Shown piece after piece: positions 14,212 through 17,081 of a DNA stretch of 64,000 nt. A model generated the notes under the pieces. It did no database searches and was not told the DNA's origin. It saw nothing but the letters and a program-made list of their open reading frames with translations. Source of the DNA: Planctomycetota bacterium (GTDB lineage: Bacteria > Planctomycetota > Phycisphaerae > UBA1845 > UTPLA1); contig JAATGM010000034.1 of the NCBI GenBank assembly GCA_015654675.1, positions 1 through 64,000 on the forward strand. The letters run 5' to 3'. Every line of letters starts with the position of its first letter. The first letter of the stretch is position 1. A program made the translations under genes and the position numbers.

Positions 14212-14694
14212 TCAACGTGATACGTCCTGCCCCTCTTCAACGTACGCAAGCGCGGCCGCAACATCGGCCTCTTTCCACAAATACCGCGTACTCCCATGCC
14301 GCGTCCAAACCGCCTGCGTCGCGGCGACAATCCCCGCATCCCGTAACCGCCGTGTTCCCCACGCCTTGCACGTCCCCATTACCGACTCCGGCCGCTCGAC
14401 CGCCGAAACAACAACGTGCACATGATTACTCCGAGCATTCAACGCGAGTATTTCCCACCCCCGATGGGTGCAGCATTCAAGAATCGCAGCCGCGACAATC
14501 CCGCGGCCGCGCTCATCAAGTGTAACTGCAAGCCCAGTCATCGCCCGCCGTTCCGATGCGACTCGCCCGGCATCTACAGGCCGCACAGCCGCGCCTGGAG
14601 TATTACGCATATCGTCGACCGACCCCCGCCCATCCCCATGAAGCCAGGTACCGTAACAAGTCCAGGTCAGAAAAAAAGCAAGCGGCCGATCCAC
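14212..14694 (-). CDS. REP-associated tyrosine transposase (RAYT, IS200-like Y1)
   Basis: 160 aa from a GTG at 14694 (VDRPLAFFLTWTCYGTW). The frame continues upstream to 14781, but that part encodes the flanking repeat, so the shorter start is preferred. Signature elements are FFLTWTCYGTWLHGDGRGSVD, the HUH pair in SNHVHVVVSA, and a C-terminal YLWKEADVAAALAYVEEGQ helix carrying the candidate catalytic tyrosine. RAYTs are single-copy Y1 transposases thought to mobilise REP hairpins rather than themselves. Here the gene lies directly between REP copies A and B, the arrangement expected for the family. Confidence 0.9.
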   Translation of the reverse strand: MDRPLAFFLTWTCYGTWLHGDGRGSVDDMRNTPGAAVRPVDAGRVASERRAMTGLAVTLDERGRGIVAAAILECCTHRGWEILALNARSNHVHVVVSAVERPESVMGTCKAWGTRRLRDAGIVAATQAVWTRHGSTRYLWKEADVAAALAYVEEGQDVSR

Positions 14695-14740
14695 GATCGC
14701 AATGCTATCAAAACCAAAGTGAAGTGTCCGAGTCAATGCA

Positions 14741-14813
14741 GTCCGAGCCGGAGCCGTAAGGCCCGGGCCCGAGACCATCACCCACCGAACCGCTTTCCAC
14801 TAGACCAGCGACC
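14741..14813 (+). repeat. REP hairpin repeat, copy B
   Basis: Starts CCGAGCCGGAGCCGTAAGGC. The inner stem is GCC-GTAA-GGC, swapped relative to copies A and C (GGC-GTAA-GCC), so pairing is kept by compensatory change. The tail contains TTTCCACTAGACCAGCGAC. It lies at the 5' side of the transposase gene. Confidence 0.85.
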
Positions 14814-14883
14814 ACCGCACGGATTTTGATGGTTACACGTTTCAATGCTACCGGAAACTCGACCTCGCAAACCTCGCCTCGAA

Positions 14884-14955
14884 ATCCGAGCCGGCGGCGT
14901 AAGCCCCGGGCCCGAGACTAACACACGTCGCGACCCGTTCCACTAGACCAGTAAC
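14884..14955 (+). repeat. REP hairpin repeat, copy C
   Basis: Starts CCGAGCCGGCGGCGTAAGCC, with the same stem as copy A but the bulged base is C instead of A. Its tail TTCCACTAGACCAGTAAC matches copy B closely. It lies between the transposase and the SNIPE-like operon. Confidence 0.85.
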
Positions 14956-15050
14956 AATCGCCCGAAATCTTCGTGCCCGTCAGCCGAACGTCGATCCGAT
15001 ACAGCCAAACCTATATACATCCCTCCCCCAAACGGTCCGGAAGCTACCCC

Positions 15051-15080
15051 TTGTCCCGGCAACCGGAAATCTGTTATTCT
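15051..15080 (+). promoter_or_regulatory. Candidate promoter of the SNIPE-like operon
   Basis: TTGTCC (15051-15056) and TATTCT (15075-15080), spaced 18 bases, end 10 bases before the ATG of the 46-aa ORF, so the message would have a very short leader. Inferred from hexamer match only. Confidence 0.35.
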
Positions 15081-15090
15081 CAAAATCGGG

Positions 15091-15231
15091 ATGGATAGTA
15101 CACACTCATCAGGCTCTCCAGATCGTTCTCACTCCGCGCGGGCAGCACGGGAGCAGTTAGCGCAACGAGCGCGCCTCGCCCTGATCACAACGGCGACTTT
15201 CGCTGACTTTCAGGGGGCAACGATTCAATGA
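15091..15231 (+). CDS. Small ORF (46 aa) at the head of the SNIPE-like operon
   Basis: ATG at 15091 to TGA at 15229-15231; the stop overlaps the ATG of the next gene (ATGA). The product starts MDSTHSSGSPDRSHSARAAREQ and is polar and Arg/Ala/Ser-rich, with no membrane segment. No family recognised. The ATGA junction and the purine-rich AGGGGG inside its end, 10 bases before the next start, suggest it is translated and couples to the 224-aa gene. It could equally be a leader peptide or a chance frame. Confidence 0.4.
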   Translation: MDSTHSSGSPDRSHSARAAREQLAQRARLALITTATFADFQGATIQ

Positions 15232-15902
15232 CGAAGGCCGAGATGGAATACCATCGAGCGCAATATCTTACGCTTGTCGACGATGCTCGCGCCGCCGAAA
15301 TGCACGGGTTCCCGAGCAAAGCAATTGAGCTCGCGGTGGCGGCATTGCCATTCATAGATGGAATGATGCAATATGAGCGCAAGTACGCAGAGCGCGAATT
15401 CGAATCAATTGACGCTATCGAAATCGTCCTGAAGCTTGCACCAGTTCTCTTCGACCTGGCGAGTCTCGACGCTGTTGGATCGGTTCTGAAAGCGAAGAAG
15501 CGCATTGATCGTAATGCCACGGATGATCTGGCCAAAAAACTCGACGCCGCAGTCACCCGGCTCTGGTCGGCGCATCGTTTGTGGAATCACTTGGAGCAAG
15601 CGCCGCTCAACGAGAAATCATTAACTGACGAGTCCGAGGCAACTGGTGAGCGCGATGCTTACTCCATCTTCTCCGCATGGCACGCCATGGGCCTCATTCG
15701 AAAGATCAAACAGGACCATTCGTCTCAATTCGAACATTCGACACGCCTGAGCGAATCGGCAAAAGCAAAGTGTTCCTGCTGCGGAATTATTGCTCGGGCA
15801 ACAAAGTCCCGATTTCTAAAGGCCCTCGAATGTCCGAAATGTAAACGCAAGTCGTGGTTCGTGATCCTCACTTCGGCACATGTTTCGGAGAAGGCGGACT
15901 AA
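15228..15902 (+). CDS. Helical protein with C-terminal zinc ribbon, partner of the SNIPE-like nuclease
   Basis: 224 aa. An AGGGGG ribosome site lies 10 bases before the ATG. Residues ~1-125 are alpha-helical and TPR-like (LVDDARAAEMHGFPSKAIELAVAAL and further helix pairs). Residues ~143-165 could form a small helix-turn-helix-like element (YSIFSAWHAMGLIRKIK). A zinc ribbon closes the protein: C182/C184/C185 and C202-x2-C205. No known family was recognised. The nuclease gene begins three bases after its stop, so the two almost certainly form one unit. Base composition is more mixed than that of its neighbours, and the block is flanked by REP copies C and D. Confidence 0.75.
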   Translation: MTKAEMEYHRAQYLTLVDDARAAEMHGFPSKAIELAVAALPFIDGMMQYERKYAEREFESIDAIEIVLKLAPVLFDLASLDAVGSVLKAKKRIDRNATDDLAKKLDAAVTRLWSAHRLWNHLEQAPLNEKSLTDESEATGERDAYSIFSAWHAMGLIRKIKQDHSSQFEHSTRLSESAKAKCSCCGIIARATKSRFLKALECPKCKRKSWFVILTSAHVSEKAD

Positions 15903-15905
15903 GCT

Positions 15906-17081
15906 TTGAGTTACGTCATTGCCTGCCTTGTGGGGATGGCTGCGGGCGGCTTCGCGGTATTTGCAATTCTTGACGGCCGTCGCCGCCGCTTGAACGAGCA
16001 GGCAGCCCTCCAGTCAGCCCAATTGGGTGACATCCGGACAAGACAGCAACATCTCGCCGAACAGGACGCGCGTGCGATCGCGGTTCGTGAACTCATCGAT
16101 GAAAACGCTGATCTCAAGAAGGACATATTCGGTTTGGATGTGGCCAATAGGAAGCTAAAGCTCGATCAAGAGTTGCAAAAGAAATCGCAAGAAGCGCTAA
16201 ATGCAAAAACCGACGAGCTTGGTTCAAAGTACATGAAAGAGACCGTCAAGTGGATCGCGTCATCATTACGTCCTGACAACTACGGCGCATGCAAACAGCG
16301 ACTGCTGGACGCGATCGAGCGCTGCCGGGAAATCGGATGCGAAATCACAAAGGCGCAGGAATTCTCGCTCTTGTCTGAGCTCAAAGCGGACTATGAACGA
16401 GTCGTCAAGGCGTCACTCGAGCGCGAAGAGCAGGCCCGGATAAGAGCTCAAATCCGCGAAGAGCAACAACGAGAACGAGACGCTCAACGTGAGCTCGATC
16501 AGCTTGATCGAGAACGCGCGGCCATTCAGGCAGCGCTCGCCAAGGCCCTGGCCGACGCACACGACCAGTACAGTGCCGAAGTCGAGGCCCTGAAAGCGCG
16601 ATTGGCATACGCCGAAGAGCAATCTCGCCGCGCGATTGCGCAAGCGCAGTTGACTAAGTCCGGCCACGTCTATGTGATTTCGAACATCGGATCGTTCGGC
16701 TCAAATGTCTTCAAGATCGGAATGACACGCCGCTTGGAGCCTCTCGAACGCATCAAGGAGCTTGGCGACGCATCGGTACCATTTCCGTTTGACATCCACA
16801 TGATGATTTCATGTGATGACGCCCCCGCATTGGAACACACGATTCATCGCGCACTGGTAAAGCACCAAATAAATAGAGTCAACCCTCGAAAAGAATTCTT
16901 TCGTATCGATCTAGATGCGATCCGACAAATCGTCGAGGAACACCACGGTGTCGTCGAATACAGGGCCGACGCGGAAGCTCTCCAATACAACCAGAGTCTC
17001 TCGATTTCCGAGGAGGATCAGGAATTCATCGAACGCGTCTATGACAAGGTCGACGAAGACCACGAATTGGACGAAGTCTGA
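15906..17081 (+). CDS. Membrane-anchored GIY-YIG nuclease with DUF4041-like region (SNIPE-like anti-phage protein)
   Basis: 391 aa from a TTG start. Residues ~3-24 form one membrane helix followed by RRRR, putting the rest in the cytoplasm. A long helical/coiled-coil region (~30-250) includes the EREEQARIRAQIREEQQRER stretch typical of DUF4041 (PF13250). Residues ~253-345 are a T5orf172-type GIY-YIG domain: GHVYVIS (Tyr256), KIGMTRR (Lys270, Arg275), LEHTIHRAL (Glu310) and PRKEFFRI. This order matches SNIPE, an inner-membrane nuclease reported to cut phage DNA during injection. The anti-phage role is inferred from architecture. It sits three bases after the zinc-ribbon partner gene. Confidence 0.82.
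   Translation: MSYVIACLVGMAAGGFAVFAILDGRRRRLNEQAALQSAQLGDIRTRQQHLAEQDARAIAVRELIDENADLKKDIFGLDVANRKLKLDQELQKKSQEALNAKTDELGSKYMKETVKWIASSLRPDNYGACKQRLLDAIERCREIGCEITKAQEFSLLSELKADYERVVKASLEREEQARIRAQIREEQQRERDAQRELDQLDRERAAIQAALAKALADAHDQYSAEVEALKARLAYAEEQSRRAIAQAQLTKSGHVYVISNIGSFGSNVFKIGMTRRLEPLERIKELGDASVPFPFDIHMMISCDDAPALEHTIHRALVKHQINRVNPRKEFFRIDLDAIRQIVEEHHGVVEYRADAEALQYNQSLSISEEDQEFIERVYDKVDEDHELDEV

Follow-up and report, generated by a model that had tools for sequence, protein, structure and literature searches.

SNIPE (PD-Lambda-1) was described in 2026 as a single protein whose DUF4041 domain recognises the phage tape-measure protein and which cleaves DNA at the site of entry (PMC13190303, in the part of the report cited here). 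E. coli SNIPE associates with ManYZ through its N-terminal region and binds both DNA and the tape-measure protein through DUF4041, and its membrane helix guards against self-damage; without the anchor it is toxic, and with it the protein appears to be auto-inhibited (PMC13190303, in part). No partner gene is described in the cited part of that report, and no multi-gene SNIPE was found in the literature searched, most subscription papers lying outside the search. The locus considered here lies in a 64,000-nucleotide stretch of planctomycete DNA (the window). Its nuclease has in common with E. coli SNIPE an N-terminal membrane helix, a helical linker, and a GIY-YIG domain (PMC13190303 and PMC9519451, both in part). 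However, its membrane helix is preceded by hardly any sequence, and it contains no recognised PF13250 (DUF4041), has lost approx. 25 alignment columns of the DUF4041 region, and is always accompanied by a second gene. Kiwa and Zorya are, as is proposed for the window pair, multi-protein membrane-located defences against incoming phage DNA, in which a membrane sensor acts with a nuclease or DNA-binding partner (PMC12904381); however, their proteins are unrelated to those of the window, where the nuclease itself is membrane-anchored.

A recurrent pair of adjacent genes

The preliminary description of this locus proposed a compact operon in which a SNIPE-like nuclease gene follows a 224-aa partner gene after three bases, the partner gene being coupled in turn to a 46-aa ORF. 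The two larger genes are arranged in this way (Table 1): the partner gene starts with ATG and the nuclease gene with TTG, and GCT (15903-15905) is all that separates the TAA stop of the former from the start of the latter. The 46-aa ORF is open and overlaps the partner start by four bases, but it is not conserved (no counterpart upstream of 13 homologous operons) and was rejected as a third component. The GC content of the gene pair is 0.53-0.54, compared with 0.62 for the window and 0.61 for the neighbouring proS. An IS200-like Y1 transposase gene (PF01797, 3.5e-5) is located between proS and the operon (window 14212-14781, minus strand).

In most of the homologous operons, an AAGGAG-like sequence is found at or adjoining the partner stop codon. 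Moreover, the partner stop and the nuclease start share a frame and are one codon apart, which is true of most homologous junctions. Such a junction suggests a read-through fusion of the two products, but as the gaps vary and the frame is not kept at three junctions (L089, L092, and L093), ordinary translational coupling seems the better account.

The partner was searched for in samples of Planctomycetota comprising 392 genomes of the phylum, 397 of the class, 23 of a second class, and 114 of the order, and weak matches (E 1e-3 to 1e-2) were counted as chance. Including the window, it is present in 15 genomes, all from Planctomycetota, and the 14 homologues are 30-46% identical where aligned; at least two of these relatives were among the matches listed in a scan of genome contigs, and 12 others came from later searches. 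In every one of the 15 genomes, the gene that immediately follows the partner gene, on the same strand, is SNIPE-like; the gap is exactly three bases in nine and -4 to 21 bases in the others (that of L089 being counted from an internal Met start). The pair is spread over at least six families and two classes, and the flanking genes vary between loci (proS adjoins the operon in the window). Since adjacency is invariable while the flanking genes are unrelated, the pairing is not due to chance, and the two genes are kept, or move, as a unit. Among the 31 genomes of the class sample with a SNIPE-like match, the 12 whose nucleases are closest to that of the window (12/12 with E below 1e-110) all have the partner, and no partner gene without a SNIPE-like neighbour occurs in this sample. 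Distances between partners are correlated with distances between nucleases (r 0.56 with a Mantel p of 0.007, and r 0.73 when L065 and L066 are excluded). Thus, the multi-gene SNIPE-like operon anticipated in a planctomycete is borne out by the neighbourhood survey, the nuclease gene not being a stand-alone one.

No partner homologues were found in phage records, plasmids, or IMG/VR. PADLOC matches among the neighbours are mainly to helicase models (GajB/UvrD, DpdJ, and BrxH, one member each); they were taken as general helicases and set aside as signs of a defence-island setting, and the loci are not obvious defence islands.

Table 1. Positions of genes and predicted features in the window
Feature	Position	Strand	Basis
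46-aa ORF, excluded from the system	15091..15231	+	similar ORF absent upstream of 13 homologous operons
Partner protein, 224 aa (helical hairpins, winged helix, zinc ribbon)	15228..15902	+	ORF; 14 homologues; AlphaFold2
Alpha-helical hairpins, partner residues 1-124 (TPR/MIT-like arrangement; no family assignment)	15228..15599	+	AlphaFold2 helices 3-124
Predicted winged helix, partner residues ~105-172	15540..15743	+	AlphaFold2 H-H-H-E-E; structure comparison
Zinc ribbon, partner residues ~177-214 (Cys182, Cys185, Cys202, Cys205)	15756..15869	+	invariant cysteines; weak Zn_ribbon_8
Shine-Dalgarno-like ggagaagg, within 3' end of partner gene, 11 bases ahead of nuclease TTG	15887..15894	+	sequence reading
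SNIPE-like membrane nuclease, 391 aa	15906..17081	+	PADLOC PD-Lambda-1; PHROG 1847; tree
Single N-terminal membrane helix, residues 4-22, followed by RRRR	15915..15971	+	hydropathy 2.47 over 19 residues
Shortened, diverged DUF4041 remnant, residues ~90-165	16173..16400	+	hhalign profile-profile alignment with other SNIPEs; multiple alignment
Charged coiled helix with EREEQ...IREE, residues ~171-249	16416..16652	+	sequence and alignment
GIY-YIG nuclease domain, residues 253-345 (Tyr256, Lys270, Arg275, Glu310)	16662..16940	+	T5orf172/MUG113; invariant residues

The nuclease and its place in the SNIPE family

The nuclease matches the PADLOC model PD-Lambda-1 (E 2.7e-82) and PHROG 1847 (9.5e-86), and a search of its profile against PDB sequences gave no match. 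The PADLOC match spans only profile positions 219-480 of 491; the canonical Klebsiella SNIPE (L072) covers 1-495 of 496. Two elements reported earlier, a single membrane helix and a GIY-YIG domain with all key residues, are found as described. The former corresponds to the only strongly hydrophobic stretch of the protein, ahead of which there are almost no residues, and a similar N-terminal segment, judged by hydropathy only, is present in 14/14 aligned partner-linked nucleases. The latter is matched by T5orf172 (3e-17) and MUG113 (2e-17), and its four key residues are invariant in an alignment of 14 partner-linked nucleases and 25 other SNIPEs.

The preliminary description also assigned the EREEQ...IREE stretch to DUF4041. 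This assignment does not hold, as PF13250 is a 56-residue domain located upstream of that stretch, which falls outside it, and PF13250 gives no match to the window nuclease at E<=1. The SNIPE order of domains stands for the membrane helix, the coiled region, and the GIY-YIG domain, but not for PF13250. Among the partner-linked nucleases, PF13250 is recognised in one of 14, and weakly (0.019), compared with 22/25 other SNIPEs. In particular, the columns absent from the partner-linked proteins ('GKxLKxxRxxxKxMVxxGxAxxC') immediately precede PF13250, and the 'AFNGECD' helix of other SNIPEs is replaced by 'RYLKENVKWIGSSL'; the 'NN...RL' helix that follows this position can still be aligned. The DUF4041 region of the partner-linked nucleases is thus shortened and diverged. 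Because PF13250 is not recognised, the window nuclease is filed, by sequence, as a member of a SNIPE-like sister clade and not as a canonical SNIPE.

In a tree of 41 nucleases (midpoint root, bootstrap incompletely settled), all partner-linked proteins fall into one clade (support 97/99). Together with L043, L044, and L070, which likewise lack PF13250, they form a short-DUF4041 clade (97/98). The gene pair, its domains, the losses, and the clade can all be read from the sequences compared. L070 (3197-4441, on the Citrobacter sp. TSA-1 plasmid NZ_CP053574.1) is embedded in a cluster of type VI secretion genes. It is conceivable that the SNIPE-derived operon targets something other than phage genome injection, such as incoming plasmids or DNA uptake, since much of the region that binds the tape-measure protein in E. 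coli is lost and a relative from the short-DUF4041 clade is encoded within a type VI secretion cluster. This is nevertheless distinctly unlikely, as the membrane-anchored SNIPE architecture is kept and the nuclease matches models built from defence genes.

In L043 (genome G137) and L044 (G257), a zinc ribbon is fused ahead of the protein's own membrane helices. These proteins resemble the window pair in belonging to the same short-DUF4041 clade and in placing a ribbon beside the membrane segment; they differ in that the ribbon is on the same polypeptide, the membrane segment seemingly has two helices, and hairpin and winged-helix parts are missing. An N-terminal zinc ribbon also precedes the membrane helices of a distant SNIPE with a normal DUF4041 (L122, 1295-2950). 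When scored with the profile of the partner ribbon, the fused ribbons of L043, L044, and L122 outscore 1000 cysteine-fixed shuffles. This supports a common kind of module, with descent unproven, for unrelated ribbons might beat shuffles too; as ribbons are small and common, the resemblance may be convergent. A close relative (G672, L120) and L070 have neither the partner nor a fused ribbon, so that a short DUF4041 does not always go with a ribbon. Domains of the zinc-ribbon type include DUF4428. A small N-terminal module is likewise carried by the SNIPE homologues that have DUF4428 or PH in this position, although the module is fused and there is no predicted membrane helix (PMC13190303, Extended Data Fig. 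10, in part).

The partner protein

The AlphaFold2 model of the partner, built from 14 sequences, has a mean pLDDT of 86.6. A helical protein with a zinc ribbon had been expected from the sequence; the predicted hairpins and four cysteines, invariant in 14/14 aligned homologues, agree with this, and the model adds a winged helix. No model in Pfam, NCBIfam, PHROG, or PADLOC names the protein, no Pfam regulator family matches it, and a structure search gave no significant full-length match; the best match of its profile among PDB sequences is ribosomal protein S27ae, with E 0.06 only. For the helical part, the VIA matches (Z 8-9) fall short of significance and are mostly to designed helical repeats. 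Pfam Zn_ribbon_8 matches the ribbon weakly in 8/14 members. Assignments of the ribbon to TackOD1, HypA, or Anti-TRAP (Pfam) were all sub-threshold and were rejected.

The predicted winged helix consists of helices 101-124, 129-139, and 143-154 and strands 157-162 and 165-170, and its first helix doubles as the final long helix of the hairpins. It resembles PadR/LmrR, Fur, and ArsR proteins (Z 7.4-8.4, rmsd 2.5-3 A over 60-70 residues; Foldseek probability about 1.0, best E 4e-3), a resemblance in the model of fold only, which does not assign the partner to any of these families. A fold shared with PadR/Fur/ArsR repressors raises the question of whether the partner, with its winged helix and zinc ribbon, is a transcription factor that controls the operon encoding it and takes no direct part in cutting. 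However, the winged helix is not basic: it is near neutral in most members, and so small a net positive charge gives no indication of DNA binding. Moreover, the only palindrome found within 14880-15240 lies approx. 300 bases ahead of the partner start, a helical domain and a ribbon are atypical of such repressors, and the fused ribbon of the sister nucleases points to a role at the protein level. A regulatory function thus seems the least probable of the roles considered.

Possible division of labour between the two proteins

The preliminary description suggested that the partner might sense the phage, restrain the nuclease, or bind the injection site. Sensing is favoured over the other two because of the domain losses of the nuclease and the existence of ribbon-fused sister proteins. 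Since the anchor and the nuclease domain are kept, the N-terminal extension and DUF4041 are reduced, and the partner is conserved, recognition in trans by the partner is the simplest account, with restraint of the nuclease and autoregulation as its chief competitors. We therefore read the locus, with a probability of about one half, as a two-gene, membrane-anchored anti-phage nuclease of a SNIPE-derived sister clade, in which the partner binds the nuclease as a recognition or adapter subunit; complex formation, the phage target, and defence activity are inferred. The nuclease would be anchored at the inner membrane by its one N-terminal helix, with the GIY-YIG domain in the cytoplasm and with the parts used for targeting by E. 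coli SNIPE (the N-terminal extension and DUF4041) reduced or gone. The partner would be a soluble cytoplasmic protein translated just ahead of the nuclease. Its zinc ribbon may dock at the membrane-proximal end of the nuclease, where the sister proteins have their fused ribbon, while its helical and winged-helix parts would touch the phage entry machinery or the incoming DNA. As a result, incoming phage DNA would be cut at the entry site only.

The order and tight translational coupling of the genes would also suit an antitoxin-like restraint, in which the partner is made first and holds the nuclease inactive until phage entry disturbs the complex. Given that anchorless E. coli SNIPE is toxic and that its membrane form appears auto-inhibited (PMC13190303, in part), a clade with an altered DUF4041 may need another brake. 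Such a role is nonetheless unlikely, as the nuclease of the window is still membrane-anchored and other SNIPEs, as well as the G672 relative, cope without the partner. As a recognition subunit, the partner probably makes up for the sensing domain, most of which the nuclease has lost. More tentatively, the system can be viewed as a split SNIPE, in which the phage-sensing role of DUF4041 has moved to a separate, swappable winged-helix/zinc-ribbon subunit acting in trans on the membrane-anchored nuclease.

If true, the split SNIPE would form an entry-site defence of two components that has a recognition logic of its own. The partner-linked clade, with no recognisable DUF4041 and a constant second protein, makes the recognition step testable by the swap or deletion of one gene, and it suggests that entry-site nucleases could be retargeted by changing a separate subunit. 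The partner family gains its first functional context. The pair also suggests that tools annotating PD-Lambda-1 as a single gene overlook half of a two-gene system.

The partner-linked system may be one among several multi-gene SNIPE arrangements. In L061 (5722-6921, minus strand), L064 (2131-3393, plus strand), and L063 (1536-2639, plus strand), a gene encoding 368-421 aa precedes the SNIPE gene with a four-base overlap, and the upstream proteins of L061 and L064 match PADLOC mREase_IV (1.5e-35 and 6e-37, respectively); these loci seem to represent another type of two-gene SNIPE. Tandem SNIPE-like genes with zero bases between them are found in L060 (325-2952), and on a Vibrio harveyi plasmid (L074, 2627-2941), a gene for a 104-aa coiled protein lies three bases upstream of a SNIPE gene.
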